DNA from: a virus
DNA length: 25,681 nucleotides
Strand: one strand, 5' to 3'
Virus record (IMG/VR): IMGVR_UViG_3300006802_000495
Span: 1 to 25,681 of that record
Below the pieces are notes generated by a model. That model was given only the letters and a program-made list of their open reading frames with translations, made no database searches and had not been told where the DNA came from. Both the position numbers and the translations under genes were made by a program. Shown in pieces: positions 99-8,836 of the stretch; position 1 is the stretch's first letter; the number at the start of each line of letters is the position of its first letter.

Positions 99-244
99 TA
101 CTTAACTCCTAAAAGTAAGCGTAACTTCTTTTTAGCCATGTGTATAGACTTGTCAATCACGACGTGACCTTCAGATTCAACTCTATGCAAGCGCTCAGCT
201 TGCAAGTAAGTGTAAGTAGAGATAATAGGCTTAGGATAGTTCAT
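98..244 (-). CDS. Small hypothetical protein, 48 aa
   Basis: This 48-codon gene starts inside the last codons of the primase-helicase gene (14-base overlap) and ends in a TAATG overlap with the next gene. GAGGA lies 8 bases before its ATG. The product begins MNYPKPIISTYTYLQAERLH and ends in a basic Lys/Arg/Leu-rich tail. No domain is recognised. Coupling to the replication gene and an intact frame with proper signals on both sides make it a real gene; its role is unknown. Confidence 0.7.
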   Translation of the reverse strand: MNYPKPIISTYTYLQAERLHRVESEGHVVIDKSIHMAKKKLRLLLGVK

Positions 245-2480
245 CTGTTTCGTCCTCGAACATTTCAGTGGTTGATTTTTTGAAGCACTTCAGGTCATAG
301 TAGAACTTTTTAACATTGCCGACAGTTGTAGGGCGAATCTTAATACCTTTACCACGTATCAACTTAGTTAGAATTCGCATGTCACCTGCATTTTCGGTTA
401 GTGCGTCATACAAGTCTTCTAGAGCCTCAGAGTATATTCGACCTTCTTTTATCTGCTTGATGAGATTAGGACAGTCGTTAAGCTCAGACAGTTCTGTAAG
501 ATAGTCTAGCATGCCATGATCTAGAGCATAAGCTAATCGTGGCCCGGCTTGCATAGAGCTTGCAATTAGCTTGTGCTTGCCTGCAGTCCAGGGTGGCGTC
601 ACATACTTAGCTTTAGGCAACATGTCTACTTCAGTAGCTAAGTAGTACGCGAAGTCTTTAGTTTCAGCAAATATACGGTCGTGTACTTCTGTTACGTCAT
701 TTACCCACTCAGCTTCTTCAAGCTTATTTGGCGTTTCAAACAACGCTATACGACGGTCACCATCTTCTAAACCGAACGGGTTTTTATTAGCAGTACTAAT
801 GAATGTGACGTTGTGCTTGTACATATAACCTTCAGTACGCATCTGACGTATAGTAATTACTTCTTTACCTGTGTACGCCTTTAACTTACCTAATGCTTCG
901 TCTTTGTCACGGCTACTTAGTTGATTACCATACTCATCTAATTGCACAAAGTATGAGTCTAGCATCCAGCTGTTAAACTGTTCTAAGAACTCTTTTGACG
1001 TCGGCTTCGACACTCGCTCATTGCCCATGATAGCTTCTAGGATACCTACGAATGTGTCTTTACCAGAACCTTGTGCGCCTAAGAAGTACAGCATTACAGG
1101 ACTGTACTCAAACTTAGTTAGCTTACGCTTAATAAACTGCAGTAAGTATGTCCGCATCTCTTCTTCAGGCACCAGGGTCTCTAAGAACTTAATTATAGTC
1201 TCAGGTCTCTTATAGAACTGCGTATAAGTCTTAGGGTCATTTAGTATGTTTAGCTCAGGCGTACGTTTAAACAAGTTAAGTGTGCGCACACTGTCGTCAG
1301 TAGCGTAGAAGCCAAACGGTTTTTCAGGCGCTGTCGTAACGTTAATAGTCGGTAACGACTGTATTAGTTCAGGCTTCTTAGGCGCACTTTTAACAGAGGT
1401 GTTCACATACATGAACATGTCAGAGTCTCTACTAAACGCTTTTACATGTTCGTTTGCAACGTCCACACAATAATACATAGCACGACGGTCATCAAAGCCC
1501 AGCTCGATAGTTGACTGACGTTTAGTATGAAGTATACATCGGTATTGGGACCAGTTTTCGTCATACTGCCAGATAGGTACTCCGTCAATACTAGCGTTAC
1601 CAGAAACCATACTGTTAGTGATAGTAGCATCCAACCTGTCAGGATCCATGGCATTGTCACCCCATAGACCATTAATATCGTGCATTGCTGCATTGTATAG
1701 CTCTTCATCAATACTAATGTCTGCGCCTAGTATAGCACTAATCTTACTTAGATATTCGGACCCACGGCCTTCAGGGACGTTCTCAGGGTGCAAAAAGCCT
1801 TGATTAACGTACTGAGGTTCATCTCTGAATGAACGTGGTGTTATAATGCGAAATAAGCCTTGAGAGAACTTACCACTATCTACAAACTGTTTTACTGCTG
1901 GTGCAAGACAGTTAGCTGTCATTACGTTAGGTGCAATGGTCGGAGCTAACTTTGGCTTAGAGCTTTCTTTTAAGTGCAGTAGAAATGACAGTACACTGGC
2001 CGGCATTTCTTTAAGCTCTGGCATTTCTTTCCAGGTCTTCTTAGTTTTGTTCTTTTCTGTAGGTAAGTACACAAAGCCATTTTCACTGTACACATCTAAA
2101 GCTAACTTGTCATTGTTGATGCCGAAGCTATCAGGGAAGTCAGGATTAAAAGCGTATATAATGGTGCCACATACCTTAGGGTTACCTTCTTTGTCAATTT
2201 TGCCTTTGGACACAAATGTGAAGTCATAGTCTGGGTCCAAGCTTCTGAATAACTGCCACACCAGGTCGTTATCACAGTCTATAGCAATTATGCCTGACTT
2301 AGAGCCTGTTAGAACACCGCCTAAGCCTGAGACTTTTTCATTGCGTTCTTCAGCATACTTTTTGCGCCAGTCTTTCTCGAACACGGGTTCAGTTTTAGAG
2401 CCGTCTTCTCGTCTTTCCAGCTTACCCTTAAGCGGTACTGTATACCAGCCTAACGATATAAACGGTTCTATATTTCGCAT
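231..2480 (-). CDS. Primase-helicase (prim-pol-like N-terminus plus SF3/D5-like helicase)
   Basis: This replication protein of about 749 aa probably primes and unwinds phage DNA. The N-terminal 170 residues resemble bifunctional primase-polymerase domains: a GGVLTGSKSG loop followed by AIDCDND, which places two acidic residues where the metal-binding DxD lies, and a later LDVYSENGFVYLP strand. The C-terminal half is an AAA+ helicase of the SF3/D5 type, with Walker A GAQGSGKDT at about residues 468-476, a Walker B-like YFVQLDEYG and a sensor-like TFISTANKNP. ATG 2480 is preferred over ATG 2486, because GGGGAG lies 6 bases before 2480 but directly abuts 2486. It overlaps the upstream 103-aa gene by 13 bases. 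The primase assignment is weaker than the helicase one, since the usual second-motif histidine was not seen. Confidence 0.9.
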   Translation of the reverse strand: MRNIEPFISLGWYTVPLKGKLERREDGSKTEPVFEKDWRKKYAEERNEKVSGLGGVLTGSKSGIIAIDCDNDLVWQLFRSLDPDYDFTFVSKGKIDKEGNPKVCGTIIYAFNPDFPDSFGINNDKLALDVYSENGFVYLPTEKNKTKKTWKEMPELKEMPASVLSFLLHLKESSKPKLAPTIAPNVMTANCLAPAVKQFVDSGKFSQGLFRIITPRSFRDEPQYVNQGFLHPENVPEGRGSEYLSKISAILGADISIDEELYNAAMHDINGLWGDNAMDPDRLDATITNSMVSGNASIDGVPIWQYDENWSQYRCILHTKRQSTIELGFDDRRAMYYCVDVANEHVKAFSRDSDMFMYVNTSVKSAPKKPELIQSLPTINVTTAPEKPFGFYATDDSVRTLNLFKRTPELNILNDPKTYTQFYKRPETIIKFLETLVPEEEMRTYLLQFIKRKLTKFEYSPVMLYFLGAQGSGKDTFVGILEAIMGNERVSKPTSKEFLEQFNSWMLDSYFVQLDEYGNQLSSRDKDEALGKLKAYTGKEVITIRQMRTEGYMYKHNVTFISTANKNPFGLEDGDRRIALFETPNKLEEAEWVNDVTEVHDRIFAETKDFAYYLATEVDMLPKAKYVTPPWTAGKHKLIASSMQAGPRLAYALDHGMLDYLTELSELNDCPNLIKQIKEGRIYSEALEDLYDALTENAGDMRILTKLIRGKGIKIRPTTVGNVKKFYYDLKCFKKSTTEMFEDETDELS

Positions 2481-2779
2481 TCCCATCTCCCCAGAGGAAA
2501 TTTGCCAACATACTTATACTCGTATGGTTGTTCCTGTACAGCTTCGCCTGCTAACATTAGCCAGGGAGGCATTATACTGTCATAAATTAATTCTTGGGTT
2601 TTAAGGTCTTGCTCTCGCTCAGCGCTATCTAGAGTATCGACAAGCATAACGACCGTTGGTCGCGTTATGTCATTCTCAATATTGTGCTGAGCAATTGCTT
2701 TAGCTACTGGTACCTGCATTGCGATCTTTTTACGGATTGCATGCAATACATCTGGCCGTATTAGTTTACGTTGCTTCAT
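2468..2779 (-). CDS. Hypothetical protein, 103 aa
   Basis: The protein is basic at the N-terminus (MKQRKLIRPDVLHAIRKKIA) and then largely helical, with a Pro/Trp segment (MPPWLMLAG) and an aromatic C-terminus. The start at 2779 is chosen because it shares an ATGA overlap with the stop of the upstream 42-aa gene. A GTG 15 bases earlier (2794) would add five residues and is possible. The 3' end overlaps the primase-helicase start, which suggests translational coupling and a role in replication. No family is recognised. Confidence 0.75.
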   Translation of the reverse strand: MKQRKLIRPDVLHAIRKKIAMQVPVAKAIAQHNIENDITRPTVVMLVDTLDSAEREQDLKTQELIYDSIMPPWLMLAGEAVQEQPYEYKYVGKFPLGRWECEI

Positions 2780-3148: not shown

Positions 3149-3706
3149 TTATCCGCGCTCCGCGTTTAAGTCAGTTGGACTACGCTCAGGGTTGTACCGA
3201 CCTAAGATGTAGTCTGGGCGACGCTGGTCAGGCTGAGGACATGCTGTTATAATACGCCAGCCATTGTTTAGCTCATTCTGTAGTGCGTCAGAGCAAGCAT
3301 TTTCCATCAGCATAATGTCGTTGTATAGTGACAGAGCTTGACCTGGCATGTGGACTTCACACTTGTTGTTATAAGTGTTGCCTCCACCTTCATTTGACAA
3401 AGCTACTTCTATTGACTTATTCGCCATGTCCTGTAGCGCATCAGTAATGTCTACACGCAAGTCTTGAGGAGCTGCAACTTTCAGTGGTACACCTGCAATG
3501 GTTAGCTCAGCGATACGCGCTTTGTCTGCTGGGAATGTCTTGTGTTCACTATCAACTATGTAGTAGTTGTTACCTTCGTCACTCCACTCATTTGTGGCGA
3601 TACCTGCAGATTCATATTTCGCTGCCTCAGCCAGGAAACTTTTCTTATCCCCGTGATGAAATGGAGCGTCTACAGTTACCATGTATACTTGAGTCGTTAT
3701 TTGCAT
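3149..3706 (-). CDS. Hypothetical phage protein, 185 aa
   Basis: The protein begins MQITTQVYMVTVDAPFHHGD and ends with a conserved-looking block (GWRIITACPQPDQRRPDYIL) followed by an Arg/Pro/Asp-rich tail. A central segment (VDITDALQDMANKSIEVAL) is helical. I do not recognise a family. The start at 3706 is set by GGGAG 8 bases upstream and by a one-base TAATG overlap with the stop of the lipoprotein gene. An in-frame ATG at 3721 has no ribosome-binding site. It is the last gene of the operon that starts at 5015. Confidence 0.8.
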   Translation of the reverse strand: MQITTQVYMVTVDAPFHHGDKKSFLAEAAKYESAGIATNEWSDEGNNYYIVDSEHKTFPADKARIAELTIAGVPLKVAAPQDLRVDITDALQDMANKSIEVALSNEGGGNTYNNKCEVHMPGQALSLYNDIMLMENACSDALQNELNNGWRIITACPQPDQRRPDYILGRYNPERSPTDLNAERG

Positions 3707-3930
3707 TATCGTTTCTCCCATTCGGCGGCATAGTAGTTGTCTATCTTACCTGAGTGTAATATCCTGGCTTTGCATGTAGCTGTCCAATCGCCCTCCCTCA
3801 GAATTAGTAGTACTACGCCATGTGCGCCTGTTAGCTTATCCCTAACGCTATCGCCTGCTTTTAGAGGGCACGGGTTGTGCGGTACTGCACAGCCAGCCAG
3901 GAACAGCGTTAGTATTAGTAGTCTAATCAT
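3706..3930 (-). CDS. Small predicted lipoprotein, 74 aa
   Basis: The N-terminus MIRLLILTLFLAGCAVPHNP is a textbook lipoprotein signal with lipobox LAGC. Cys14 would be the lipidated residue, and the mature protein would be about 61 residues, anchored in the envelope of a Gram-negative host. The mature part contains LKAGDSVRDKLTGAHGVVLL, a pattern typical of small SH3-like barrels. ATG 3930 is chosen over 3936: AGGAG is 8 bases away and the upstream stop overlaps as ATGA. Phage lipoproteins of this size can act in superinfection exclusion or lysis; which applies here is not visible. Confidence 0.75.
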   Translation of the reverse strand: MIRLLILTLFLAGCAVPHNPCPLKAGDSVRDKLTGAHGVVLLILREGDWTATCKARILHSGKIDNYYAAEWEKR

Positions 3931-4157: not shown

Positions 4158-4336
4158 CCTAGTATCTCCTGCCGTACCTTCTCGTACAGCTCTCGATGAG
4201 CTGGTGACTGTCTGGATATAACTTGTAACTCACGCAGGCTATCCTCACCTGCTTGCCACACTTTGTGATCATCGCTCATCATGTGCCACCAGTCGTGAGC
4301 GCGCAACTGTTTCTTGTACTCATTTAGATCTGTCAT
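4151..4336 (-). CDS. Hypothetical protein, 61 aa
   Basis: A hydrophilic helical protein with an unusual Trp/His/Met cluster (AHDWWHMMSDDHKVWQ) near the N-terminus. GAGGAA lies 5 bases before the ATG. It overlaps the upstream HTH-protein gene by 17 bases and the downstream gene by 7, so it is translated as part of a tightly coupled operon. The function is unknown. Confidence 0.7.
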   Translation of the reverse strand: MTDLNEYKKQLRAHDWWHMMSDDHKVWQAGEDSLRELQVISRQSPAHRELYEKVRQEILGC

Positions 4337-5015
4337 CGTCTTTCCTCATGTGATAGTAAATGTTACTACGGGTTACGTTAAACTTCTCGGCTGCCTTAGT
4401 TATATTGTGCTCGTTTGCGTACTTCAGTATCTCAGGCCAGTTATCAATGTACTGTTTGTGCTGTCGCTCTAAGCCCAGGTCTATAGCTATCAAACTAACT
4501 GTCGACACACTACACTTTAGCTCATCAGCTATCTCTGCATACAGGACGCCTTCGCGTAGTAGCGGCTCAGCTAAGTGTGCCAGGTCTTGTCGCTTTACGT
4601 CACGCTTGCGATGATGAGCAAGCATCTTGTGGACGTAACTAATGTTTGCGCCAGTATACTCGGCGATTATCTCAAAGTCTGTCTTCTCAGGGTTAGCTAC
4701 TTTGATGCCGCACTGTAGCTCCTGGTATAAGCTCTCAAGCTGTTGTAGCGACGGTCTTCTTGTCTTCGGTGGTACAGTATACTTAGCTTTGTACAACTCC
4801 TGGTTGCTTATGCGGTACATGCGCATTAGCTCTGGCCCTGTATGCTCGTGACCAGTTTCATAGAATATCTCTTCTCTTGCTGCCTGGCTTAGCTCAGGCG
4901 ATGGCTCACGCATACACTGTCTAGCTTTATGGTGCGTTATCACCATGTGGTTTACTATAGTATCTTCATCAACGCCTGCAGCTTCCAGGTTACGTACTTG
5001 TTGCTTAACACTCAT
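4320..5015 (-). CDS. Multi-helix-turn-helix DNA-binding protein, 231 aa
   Basis: The protein appears to be a string of small helix-turn-helix units. Candidates are at about residues 3-33, 43-79, 92-135, 143-182 and 192-225. The last two are the clearest: EIADELKCSVSTVSLIAIDL and NITKAAEKFNVTRSNIYYHM both show the helix-turn-recognition helix pattern. The first three are more diverged. It is probably a transcription regulator or DNA organiser. It opens the operon that includes the lipoprotein gene and follows the hairpin at 5044-5069. Its Shine-Dalgarno is weak (GGA well upstream), so low expression from read-through is likely. The HTH nature is sequence-based; the target is unknown. Confidence 0.8.
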   Translation of the reverse strand: MSVKQQVRNLEAAGVDEDTIVNHMVITHHKARQCMREPSPELSQAAREEIFYETGHEHTGPELMRMYRISNQELYKAKYTVPPKTRRPSLQQLESLYQELQCGIKVANPEKTDFEIIAEYTGANISYVHKMLAHHRKRDVKRQDLAHLAEPLLREGVLYAEIADELKCSVSTVSLIAIDLGLERQHKQYIDNWPEILKYANEHNITKAAEKFNVTRSNIYYHMRKDDDRSK

Positions 5016-5075: not shown

Positions 5076-5570
5076 CTAGTGAGCTACGCCACGGTTTGCG
5101 TTGTCTTCAAGTAACTCTTCAAGAGTCTCAAAGCCGTAACCGTCAGACTTCTCAACAACCGCATCGCGTTCCGCTTCAAGGTCAGCCATGATTGTTGGTA
5201 GGTCAGCCGCGTCAACTTCACCTGCCGCTACTTTACCAAGTAATGCAGCCTGAGCTTTCTTGTAACCAGCTTGCTGCTTAGTCCAGTGTGACACACCTTC
5301 TTTACACATGCTGTTCAAGCCTGTAGCACTCGAAGCTTTTTTACCGAAGTCTTCAATTTCCGGTGACATCCAAGTGCCGAAGTAATAACACTTAACGGCT
5401 ACAACTACGCCTTCTTCGTTGCGGTGGAATGTAGTAGCACGTGAACCACCGCCACCAGTCTTCGCACTTGCAATGGCGATAACTTCAGGCAGGACGTCTG
5501 CAACGATGGCGTCATCATTAGCTTGAAGTAATTCTACGATTTCGGTGTATGCTTTTTTAATACCAGCCAT
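5076..5570 (-). CDS. Conserved phage protein of unknown function, 164 aa (paralogue A)
   Basis: The protein is clearly related along its whole length to the 165-aa product at 7188-7685. Shared landmarks are a KK..E I..LL start, AKxGGGG near residue 38, a CYY...W segment near 61-67, and an almost identical MCKEGVS-WTKQ block near residues 87-98, followed by an acidic helical C-terminus. A lone, well-insulated gene with a good SD (AAGGAG), its own promoter (5624-5655), a leader stem-loop (5604-5616) and a hairpin after it suggests abundant expression. I know of no assigned function; the conserved Cys/Trp/Lys block and paralogy suggest a nucleic-acid or host-factor interaction, but that is inference. 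Confidence 0.85.
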   Translation of the reverse strand: MAGIKKAYTEIVELLQANDDAIVADVLPEVIAIASAKTGGGGSRATTFHRNEEGVVVAVKCYYFGTWMSPEIEDFGKKASSATGLNSMCKEGVSHWTKQQAGYKKAQAALLGKVAAGEVDAADLPTIMADLEAERDAVVEKSDGYGFETLEELLEDNANRGVAH

Positions 5571-5679: not shown

Positions 5680-6093
5680 TTACTCTTGCGATATCAGCAT
5701 GTGCTCGACACTCTCCAACGCGACGTATTGCGGTGGTGTATACTGCGGTAACCAAGCATACCGTTTTACCTCGGTGTACGCTCGCACCTTCAAGTCGTCT
5801 AGCCCAGGCACATGCATCCACGGTACTCCATTGTACAGCACCAGTGTGTCCTCATCGTATGTAACTATCCTGGCGACACTGTCTCCCTCGAAGTGAGTAA
5901 CTAATGAGCGCCCAAGCCGTGGATTCTGAGCTAAGGTTATCTCGCCGGCGACTACCTTGAAGGTACGTGACTTAAGGCTATGGAATGAGCAGTACGTGCG
6001 AATGGAAGCTGATGGGCTCAGTGGTTTGGGTTGCTTAAGTTGACGATGATGGAACTCAAGTAAGCTAAGTAAGTGACGGATTTCTTGTTTCAT
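5680..6093 (-). CDS. Hypothetical protein, 137 aa
   Basis: The N-terminal 20 residues form a helix (MKQEIRHLLSLLEFHHRQLK) followed by a proline/serine linker (QPKPLSPSAS). The remaining 100 residues look like a small beta-rich domain. No family is recognised. AGGA lies 10 bases before the ATG. It is the first gene downstream, on the minus strand, of the control region with the tandem LexA boxes, with about 250 bases of leader between, so it is the best candidate for a gene under SOS control. The hairpins at 6124-6162 lie in that leader. Confidence 0.75.
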   Translation of the reverse strand: MKQEIRHLLSLLEFHHRQLKQPKPLSPSASIRTYCSFHSLKSRTFKVVAGEITLAQNPRLGRSLVTHFEGDSVARIVTYDEDTLVLYNGVPWMHVPGLDDLKVRAYTEVKRYAWLPQYTPPQYVALESVEHMLISQE

Positions 6094-6123
6094 GATGTTG
6101 TCGTCCTATTTAATGGTTATGGA

Positions 6124-6162
6124 TAGGCCTCAGGCCTTGTGTATTAGTCCGTATGGACTTTT
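6124..6162. terminator. Two adjacent small hairpins
   Basis: AGGCCTCAGGCCT folds as a 5-bp GC stem. AGTCC-GTAT-GGACT then forms a 5-bp stem followed by TTTT on the plus strand. Together they could stop rightward transcription out of the 137-aa gene region, or attenuate leftward transcripts in its leader. Stems are short, so the call is weak. Confidence 0.35.
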
Positions 6163-6167
6163 CTGAA

Positions 6168-6344
6168 ATTTTATATACGTTTATCAAGATTCGTTGAAAA
6201 TTGATGGTGGTGGGCTTTAGGTTTGATCTGATATCAGTACCTCGAATTGACATAAGAATGACGCTGACAATACGGTGTATAGACTTTAGATTATGTAAAA
6301 AACCCATATTTTGATTTTCCATTTATATATATTTTATATACGTT
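6168..6344. repeat. Pair of 14-bp direct repeats (6168-6181, 6331-6344)
   Basis: The sequence ATTTTATATACGTT occurs twice, 163 bases apart, in the same orientation. On the minus strand each copy reads AACGTATATAAAAT and so contains a -10-like TATAAA. The right copy directly abuts the first LexA box. They may be two promoter cores or binding sites for one protein. Confidence 0.5.
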
Positions 6345-6380
6345 CTGTATATATATACAGTACTGTATATATATACAGTA
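6343..6380. promoter_or_regulatory. Two tandem LexA (SOS) operator boxes
   Basis: The 16-bp palindrome CTGTATATATATACAG occurs at 6345-6360 and again at 6363-6378, with centres 18 bp apart. The second copy with its flanks reads TACTGTATATATATACAGTA, identical to the E. coli LexA consensus; the first differs only in one flanking base (TT instead of TA). Two closely set boxes are known from colicin promoters. Repressor binding here by host LexA is inferred from the match. Confidence 0.75.
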
Positions 6381-6470
6381 GTATTATAAAATATATTTTA
6401 ATTTAATATATAATATATAAGTATTAAATACTAAATAATATTAGAACACTATACAAGTAATTGACCGCCT

Positions 6471-6650
6471 TCATGATGAAAGTTTAGTTACAACGGTCAA
6501 CGTTTTGTCATTTCTATACTCGCACAATAGCATTCGGAGTAACTTTAGTTGGTCGATTTGTGAACTACTATGGTACAACCTTAGCCATTCGTCTTCAAAC
6601 TTTTGCCACTCGAATGCCCTATAATGCTCGTCTAAGATACTCGTATTCAT
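6471..6650 (-). CDS. Small hypothetical protein, 59 aa
   Basis: A 59-codon frame begins MNTSILDEHYRAFEWQKFED and ends TVVTKLSS. It is acidic, helical and aromatic-rich in the first half, with one cysteine near residue 43. Its ATG follows the stop of the 63-aa gene by two bases (TAGTTATG), which supports reinitiation; no strong SD is seen. It is the last gene of the AT-rich cassette operon. No family is recognised. Confidence 0.65.
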   Translation of the reverse strand: MNTSILDEHYRAFEWQKFEDEWLRLYHSSSQIDQLKLLRMLLCEYRNDKTLTVVTKLSS

Positions 6651-6652
6651 AA

Positions 6653-7126: not shown

Positions 7127-7160
7127 TAGTTACTCCTTAATTTGGTGTTCTTCTTAGTAA

Positions 7161-7180
7161 GGGTACTATTTCTAGTACCC
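7161..7180 (-). terminator. Hairpin after the 165-aa gene
   Basis: GGGTACTA and TAGTACCC form a perfect 8-bp stem with a 4-base loop, 7 bases past the stop of the 165-aa gene. There is no T-run on the minus strand, so it may be an attenuator or an mRNA 3'-end stabiliser. The position mirrors the hairpin after the paralogous 164-aa gene. Four bases of it (7161-7164) belong to the left inverted-repeat arm. Confidence 0.55.
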
Positions 7181-7187
7181 ATTACGT

Positions 7188-7685
7188 CTATAGTTCTTCG
7201 TTGATGTTGTTCGCGAATACTTCACTAACTTCTTCGGCGGTGTCATAACCTTGACCATCTTCACGAGGAACGATGATTCGAGTTGACTCTTCAAGTTCTT
7301 CAATGGCACTCGCCAAATTCTCTTGAAGGATCTCGCCGTCTAATACTTTAGTTAGTAACTCATCCTTTCCTTTTTTGGCGAGTCGACGTTGTTTGGTCCA
7401 ATTAGATACACCTTCCTTACACATAGTGTTAAGGTTAGTTGAGGTACCTTTCTTAGAACCATATTCGCACTCACTAAGTAGTTCCCACTTCTTGTGGTAG
7501 TAACAATAGATCGCGAATACTTCGCCGTTCTCGTCTTTCAAGAAAGTCTTACCAATGTCACTACCACCGCCACTTTTCGCGGTCATGAGTTCCATTAGTT
7601 GAGGTAGTATTGTACTCACTTTCTTATTAGAGTTCTCTTCTAATAGGTTGGCGATTTCAACGAATACTTTCTTTACATTAGACAT
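7188..7685 (-). CDS. Conserved phage protein of unknown function, 165 aa (paralogue B)
   Basis: This is the second copy of the family at 5076-5570, with about a third or more of residues identical by eye. It shares the KK..EI..LL start, AKSGGGS near residue 37, the CYY segment, and MCKEGVSNWTKQ near residue 90, followed by a basic stretch and an acidic C-terminus. AAGGAG precedes the ATG. Codon choice is more AT- and TCG/CGA-rich than in copy A, and the gene lies between 26-bp inverted repeats, so it looks acquired rather than recently duplicated in place. Function unknown; the conserved central block is the likely active or binding surface. Confidence 0.85.
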   Translation of the reverse strand: MSNVKKVFVEIANLLEENSNKKVSTILPQLMELMTAKSGGGSDIGKTFLKDENGEVFAIYCYYHKKWELLSECEYGSKKGTSTNLNTMCKEGVSNWTKQRRLAKKGKDELLTKVLDGEILQENLASAIEELEESTRIIVPREDGQGYDTAEEVSEVFANNINEEL

Positions 7686-7738: not shown

Positions 7739-8081
7739 AACCCTTACTAAGAAGAACACCAAATTGTTAAAGATCTAAGTTAATGCTCGATTAACCTTGA
7801 ATTAAATATATAACGTTTAACTCGAGAAGTACAATTAAAATTGAATTTAATTTACTTATTTGTGTATTCATATTTATTCTCTTAGTTGTTAGTTGATAAT
7901 TAAATAATATACTTTTATTTTCAAATGTGAAATACCGTTTGGTTATATTAAATTGATTTTTTATAACTTGAGTTATATTGACTTATTTATATATGTGTGC
8001 ATGCGAATATCATAGATTCTACTAAAAGTAAAATTTATTTTATCTATATAACTTATAAGTTTGATGAATATTGATTGTCTT

Positions 8082-8177
8082 ATTGTTTTAAAGTAAGATT
8101 GTCTAACAATCGGATTGCCTTGAAGTAAGATTGTTTGATTGTCTCATTGCCTTGAAGTAAGATTGTCTGACAACCTG
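8082..8177. repeat. Three tandem 32-bp repeats
   Basis: Units begin at 8082, 8114 and 8146 with an exact 32-bp period. Every unit contains AAGTAAGATTGT; units 2 and 3 also share ATTGCCTTG before it. The first unit contains the dyad GATTGT-CTA-ACAATC. Regular short direct repeats beside A/T-rich DNA are typical of iterons or of terminase recognition sites; either role here is inferred. Confidence 0.7.
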
Positions 8178-8232: not shown

Positions 8233-8280
8233 AGTAAAATATGTTTCACCATAGTAAGTTAATAAATTTATTAAATTTCG

Positions 8281-8317: not shown

Positions 8318-8836
8318 TTACACAATAACCCAGTCTTCCGACAGCATATCGGATTGCGAAGCTAGCCACCCAGGAATCCACTGCTTCTGCGCATTATACA
8401 TTGCTATGTAAGGTTGGCAGTCCAATGGTGCATCTTCACCAATATGCTTCGCGGTCCGCGCGTTTACCTTAGGTCCGGGCTCAGGTGTGCTAGCTGGAGG
8501 GAGAAATAGTGGAGGCATATAGACGATAAACATGTCCTTGCCATTCCAACCTTTGCGAGCTACCTTCAAGCCGAGCTTCAGTGCTTCAATAGCATGCCCG
8601 AAGGTCATTGCATCAGACGTGTCGTTGTAAGCATTATCAAACTGCTCTTTCGGAGACCAAGAGATATAACCGGCGTGTCGTGGATCATTAGTTTTACCAC
8701 CATCGGTGTACTCAACTAAGTACCCTTCATCCGTACCGTCTTCATCGGCCGGTAACTCCCAACCACGATAGTCGTTATAAGCGTCACGGCGCATAGGCGT
8801 CGCGTTTACAATTTTAGTTCCGATATATTGTTTCAT
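8318..8836 (-). CDS. tad2: Tad2-like (DUF2829) anti-defence protein with an N-terminal extra domain, 172 aa
   Basis: The C-terminal part (about 78-172) has the DUF2829/Tad2 pattern: MTFGHAIEALKLGLKVARKG followed by WNGKDMFIVYMPP, then YIAMYNAQ, a W.PGW.ASQSDML segment and the ending SEDWVIV. Tad2 proteins from other phages bind and sequester the cyclic nucleotide signal of Thoeris defence, and some also bind CBASS signals, so this product probably acts in the host cytoplasm. An N-terminal domain of about 74 residues (GTKIV...RGWELP...EGYLVEY...GYISWSPKEQFDNAY) is of the type often found in front of DUF2829. A Pro-rich insert lies near 108-125. The start overlaps the TerL stop as ATGA, so it is the last gene of the packaging operon. 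Family assignment is firm; ligand choice is not known. Confidence 0.85.
   Translation of the reverse strand: MKQYIGTKIVNATPMRRDAYNDYRGWELPADEDGTDEGYLVEYTDGGKTNDPRHAGYISWSPKEQFDNAYNDTSDAMTFGHAIEALKLGLKVARKGWNGKDMFIVYMPPLFLPPASTPEPGPKVNARTAKHIGEDAPLDCQPYIAMYNAQKQWIPGWLASQSDMLSEDWVIV

Follow-up and report, generated by a model that had tools for sequence, protein, structure and literature searches.

The window, by which we mean the whole stretch of DNA analysed here, is a virus record 25,681 bp long, a genome fragment from a podovirus of Kafunavirus-like type. The primase, TerL, and phrog_10459 proteins that it encodes match at 45–64% those of isolated relatives (Edwardsiella phages KF-1, IW-1, ETP-1, and ZHX of the genus Kafunavirus, Vibrio phage VPMS1, Dickeya phage Amaethon, and Pseudoalteromonas phage PH1) and of two environmental genomes. 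Primase, TerL, the phrog_10459 pair, and gene order are all held in common with this group; a megablast search of the window against phage DNA gave no match. The known hosts of the isolated relatives are gammaproteobacteria (Vibrio, Edwardsiella, Dickeya, and Pseudoalteromonas). Searches of five complete relatives (KF-1, VPMS1, Amaethon, PH1, and G001, a 44-kb genome) turned up no tyrosine integrase (PF00589) and no S24 domain of the LexA/CI type (PF00717), and so gave no sign of the integrase or repressor-held carrier state by which a temperate phage would be recognized; the window itself is a fragment. The features at the locus are as follows.

231–2486, minus strand: early DNA polymerase/primase (phrog_19785), on the same strand, with some 4 kb between it and the boxes upstream
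5076–5570, minus strand: phrog_10459 protein, copy 2, on the downstream side of the slot that holds the boxes
5680–6093, minus strand: first early gene to the left of the boxes, 137 aa, candidate LexA-controlled gene
6110–6322, minus strand: 70-aa open reading frame adjoining the boxes, judged not to be a gene
6314–6409: looser 96-bp dyad around the boxes, 79% complementary, within the 100-bp stretch of the window highest in AT (89%)
6345–6378: putative tandem operator, two boxes plus a TA spacer, a 34-bp perfect palindrome
6345–6360: LexA box 1, CTGTATATATATACAG, exact pattern match, matrix score 26.5, unchanged in the close relative L001
6361–6380: LexA box 2, TACTGTATATATATACAGTA, with core CTGTATATATATACAG at 6363–6378, matrix score 30.6, unchanged in L001
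6383–6388, minus strand: putative −10 hexamer, TATAAT, belonging to a possible leftward promoter; it lies 4 nt ahead of box 2 when read along this strand
7188–7685, minus strand: phrog_10459 protein, copy 1, on the upstream side of the slot

The two exact copies of CTGTATATATATACAG have their centres 18 bp apart, as a sequence-only reading of this DNA had stated, and the second copy with its flanks, which that reading equated with the E. coli LexA consensus, does match it at 20 of 20 bp. Box 1 in its 20-bp context (TTCTGTATATATATACAGTA, 6343–6362) deviates from the consensus by one base at its outer edge. Because each box and the TA spacer are palindromic, the pair forms a single perfect palindrome, and no further copy of CTGTATATATATACAG occurs in the window with up to three mismatches allowed. 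We scored sites with a LexA matrix derived from 18 known E. coli boxes. The window boxes (30.6 and 26.5 bits) lie at or above nearly all of the E. coli sites used (14.2–27.6); every other position in the window scores 9.2 or less. When the AT-rich gap containing the boxes (6094–6652) was dinucleotide-shuffled 20,000 times, the pattern CTGTA-N6-TACAG appeared in 0.065% of the shuffled gaps, and it occurred twice in none, nor did any contain a perfect box (0/20,000 for each). Judged from its sequence, the pair is very likely bound by LexA.

Hexamers resembling a −10 element also end 1–5 nt before the box in three other lineages discussed below (L160, L259, and G001), making four with the window. 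No convincing −35 was found for the leftward promoter at the boxes, promoter scans did not single this promoter out, and a common −35/−10 layout sought across all 40 of the contigs with tandem boxes (see below) was not found. The earlier reading took 5680–6093 to be the first leftward gene. That choice holds, because the nearer 70-aa reading frame is broken in L001, where stops interrupt it even though the two sequences are almost the same closer to the boxes; it was therefore rejected as the controlled gene. The 137-aa protein has no PHROG or Pfam match, and its sole homologue is in the close relative. Structure models of this protein (single-sequence) and of the helix-turn-helix (HTH) repeat gene that follows the box elsewhere were too poor for use. 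Some 250 bp separate the boxes from the start of the 137-aa gene, and the promoter-like ATTTTATATACGTT is present a second time in that interval (6168–6181), so the gene may have its own LexA-free promoter. G001, L160, and L259 share a family of repeat proteins, which supplies the first gene beyond the box in each; it has a weak HTH Pfam match (E = 0.0045) and is present also in relatives without a box.

Conservation in related phages supports the core of the earlier reading. The pair is identical letter for letter in L001, which shares 94% identity with the window over 10.5 kb. A search of IMG/VR with a TerL profile recovered 80 loci of relatives (840 kb), among which we counted as strong any LexA-like site scoring at least 17. 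There are five, every one in the homologous slot, the AT-rich gap past the first phrog_10459 gene and before the early genes, 1.7–2.5 kb after terL. They fall in three lineages: L147, the close relative of the window; L160, with a single perfect box; and L166 (the same as G001/L034), in which a pair is formed by two copies of CTGTATATACGTACAG, with the core TATACG replacing TATATA and the CTGTA/TACAG arms intact. A fourth lineage, L259, found with a phrog_10459 profile, has a further perfect single box. The CTG/CAG ends are thus not lost around a persisting A/T core; the reverse is seen in the distant G001/L034, where the arms are retained and the core is altered. The trait requires at least three changes on the TerL tree, and the box has therefore been gained or lost repeatedly. 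The majority of relatives that have the slot are without a box there, which means that the family can do without LexA control; in the closest boxless relatives (L148, and L156, sister of L160) the slot is filled by different sequence. The equivalent slot of KF-1 (about 3540–3790) holds three near-identical tandem repeats with promoter-like TTGTAC/TATACT, a different control arrangement.

The AT richness of this stretch and its 96-bp dyad would also suit a replication origin, at which a phage initiator binds or the DNA melts easily, with the likeness to LexA sites incidental or with LexA gating the origin. By eye, the equivalent AT-rich gap of KF-1 and Amaethon lacks a LexA box and contains long inverted repeats of other kinds. 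The outer symmetry, however, has changed in L001 and is missing from G001, and the boxes stay in both; the dyad is therefore probably not the functional unit, and a hairpin or extended dyad was rejected as the main one. It is also the CTGTA arms that are retained and the core that varies, the same layout occurs at lexA and recN (below), and no initiator site common to the family was found in this gap. We consider it decidedly unlikely that the boxes are an origin dyad; a replication origin may coexist with them in the AT-rich gap.

Beyond the family, the tandem pattern CTGTA-N6-TACAG-NN-CTGTA-N6-TACAG occurs in 40 IMG/VR contigs. When spacers of 0–30 bp were allowed, 43 pairs had the 2-bp spacer and every other spacer had nine or fewer. 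A control with scrambled arms of the same bases matched 21 contigs over all spacers and, among the match lengths listed, none at 2 bp. With the shuffles, this control led us to reject a chance origin of the pair in the AT-rich gap. Common proteins sort the 40 contigs into 13 groups, the largest of which comprises 22 T7-like members with a phrog_239 primase-helicase; because the flanks of L030 are the same as those of L024 and L033, we count about 12 independent phage groups. The tandem lies outside open reading frames in 36 of the 40, with 11 in divergent gaps and one in a convergent gap. Among isolated phages, Pseudoalteromonas phage J2-1 has an 18-bp pair (scores 25.3 and 24.9), and Aeromonas phages Tola and Aer_P220 each have, close to the left end, four LexA-like boxes, which include two spaced 18 bp apart. 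Both Aeromonas phages are published as virulent, forming clear plaques on healthy hosts (PMC9145550, PMC9780818); SOS goes unmentioned in both, and 'LexA' does not occur in the text that was searched.

Single boxes were seen as well. Escherichia phage chee24, which is T5-like, has a near-perfect box (TACTGTATAAATATACAGTA, 2001–2020, 29.3 bits) in its left terminal repeat, and several T5-like food isolates have matches that resemble it. Strong intergenic LexA-like boxes also occur singly in the jumbo Serratia phage BF (22.5 bits) and the T4-like Vibrio phage V05 (24.3 bits).

Among GTDB species genomes we found 15 occurrences of the tandem, of which 12 are in beta- or gammaproteobacteria. It precedes recN in three Chimaeribacter and, in a Sedimenticola metagenome-assembled genome (MAG), a lexA gene with LexA_DNA_bind and Peptidase_S24 domains, which adjoins imuA/imuB-like genes (named by eye). 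The 18-bp layout is thus tied to LexA, as it stands before bona fide SOS genes. A Paraburkholderia and a Burkholderia genome carry the 18-bp pair before a small uncharacterised reading frame (MEHLVRV.NE.DRQTL..), which has no PHROG match and is probably a new SOS gene. Taken with the conservation of the pair and its repeated recurrence in the same slot, the tandem before lexA and recN lends good support to the earlier claim that these are two strong boxes for host LexA, as their sequences predict.

An unrelated phage or host regulator whose site happens to fit the LexA consensus is conceivable, given that an HTH protein is encoded nearby (4320–5015), that in G001, L160, and L259 the box is followed by a repeat gene with weak HTH likeness, and that the 22-contig T7-like group has no assigned hosts. 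The match to the gammaproteobacterial consensus is nonetheless perfect over 20 bp rather than over 4 + 4 bases alone, and genomic copies stand at lexA and recN. Gammaproteobacterial LexA, including that of the relatives' hosts, recognizes CTGT-N8-ACAG, and no S24 repressor was found in the five relatives searched. Such a regulator seems to us very improbable.

The sequence-only reading had also raised a LexA decoy, in which replicated ideal sites titrate host LexA and switch on repair or recombination genes useful to the phage. The window does have two near-ideal sites without a good −35, and boxes are repeated in other phages (several in L020, four in Tola and in Aer_P220); the array in Tola overlaps its direct terminal repeat and would therefore be present in more than one copy per genome. 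A decoy could sit anywhere, yet the boxes of this family all occupy one early-gene slot, at merely one or two per genome, and those of other phages prefer divergent promoter gaps. Moreover, any LexA operator, being a cognate site, unavoidably titrates LexA as a side effect. A decoy is possible, though in our view unlikely, and it is less favoured than an operator, which better fits the conserved location and the preference for divergent gaps.

We therefore return to the operator. The pair is probably a double operator at which host LexA represses a leftward early promoter and from which DNA damage releases it. A LexA dimer on each of the neighbouring boxes would mask the start site used by host RNA polymerase at a leftward promoter (TATAAT, 6388–6383) and so hold down the first transcript of the early region. 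DNA damage, or infection itself, would activate RecA, LexA would cleave itself, and the early transcript would be freed, the phage in effect borrowing the SOS sensor of its host. Most likely, the benefit would be to tune or delay part of the early programme according to the DNA-damage state of the host. We infer LexA binding in this host, the promoter position, the responding genes, and the benefit. Repression and damage release of 5680–6093, which the earlier reading also proposed, are a plausible prediction. Any repression is not absolute, since the virulent Aeromonas phages that have boxes make clear plaques on healthy hosts; LexA control may be confined to a subset of early functions, which would fit the plaquing of those phages on undamaged cells.

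Several other features of the window lie near the slot. The palindrome TTAATAAATTTATTAA occurs at 8259–8274, just downstream of the large terminase gene; with core variants allowed, 26 of 62 relatives have it no more than 600 bp from terL, often in tandem. It is present also in KF-1, Amaethon, PH1, and MW202665, a far wider conservation than that of the LexA boxes, and is possibly a packaging or replication signal. Just upstream of it are tandem 39-bp repeats (8071–8109 and 8135–8173, 87% alike). Between terL and the early region, the minus-strand reading frame at 8318–8836 has a Tad2-like domain (PF11195, E = 4e-25) and is a candidate anti-Thoeris counter-defence gene. Exact 26-bp inverted repeats (7139–7164 and 7740–7765), both present in L001, flank the phrog_10459 gene at 7188–7685; they could mark an invertible segment or a duplicated control sequence.

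The window pair shares with the SOS operators of gammaproteobacteria (recA, sulA, recN, and lexA) the same CTGT-N8-ACAG motif and 20-bp consensus, and its 18-bp tandem is identical to that at Chimaeribacter recN and Sedimenticola MAG lexA. It differs from them in being phage-borne, in having both copies ideal, and in controlling no known SOS gene. Colicin promoters, to which the earlier reading likened it, have paired LexA boxes that give tight repression and release on damage. Like them, the window has two strong neighbouring boxes over one promoter, in this case a putative one; its boxes, in contrast, do not overlap, are exactly 18 bp apart, and lie in a phage early region with no colicin or lysis gene.

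Host-LexA control is a tool of temperate phages and plasmids. Host LexA controls transcription of Bacillus phage GIL01 (PMC4551915) and, according to a summary of Fornelos 2016 given in PMC9437464, is also used by tum of coliphage 186 and by the CTX phage. Those phages are temperate or persistent, whereas no integrase or repressor was found in the relatives of the window, whose slot heads the early genes of podoviruses of lytic type. A literature search that covered few subscription journals returned no paper describing either LexA operators in virulent podoviruses or a recurrent 18-bp double box. LexA control of phages is thus known, while a role for it in virulent podoviruses, like the recurrence of the double box, appears to be new.

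A parallel in logic is offered by the CtrA-controlled phages of alphaproteobacteria, in which a co-opted host master regulator brings about 'lytic deferment' (PMC9437464). There and in phi29, with Spo0A, unrelated phages have independently co-opted a host master regulator through sites in promoter regions, as is proposed here; the regulator differs, and the signal would be DNA damage rather than the cell cycle or sporulation. We suggest tentatively, at chances we would put below even, that unrelated virulent phages have convergently adopted the 18-bp double LexA box as an SOS-gated 'lytic deferment' or a check of host-DNA integrity, without lysogeny; many seemingly virulent phages may read the DNA-damage alarm of their host. 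If lytic podoviruses and T7-like phages do repeatedly evolve this double operator, the boundary between virulent and temperate control blurs, and UV and quinolones are predicted to alter infection by phages held to be strictly virulent. This could bear on phage–antibiotic synergy, and is testable with the published Tola and Aer_P220. These two Autographiviridae resemble the window in having 18-bp tandem LexA-like boxes ahead of their early genes, and differ from it in being T7-like, unrelated, and equipped with four weaker boxes.
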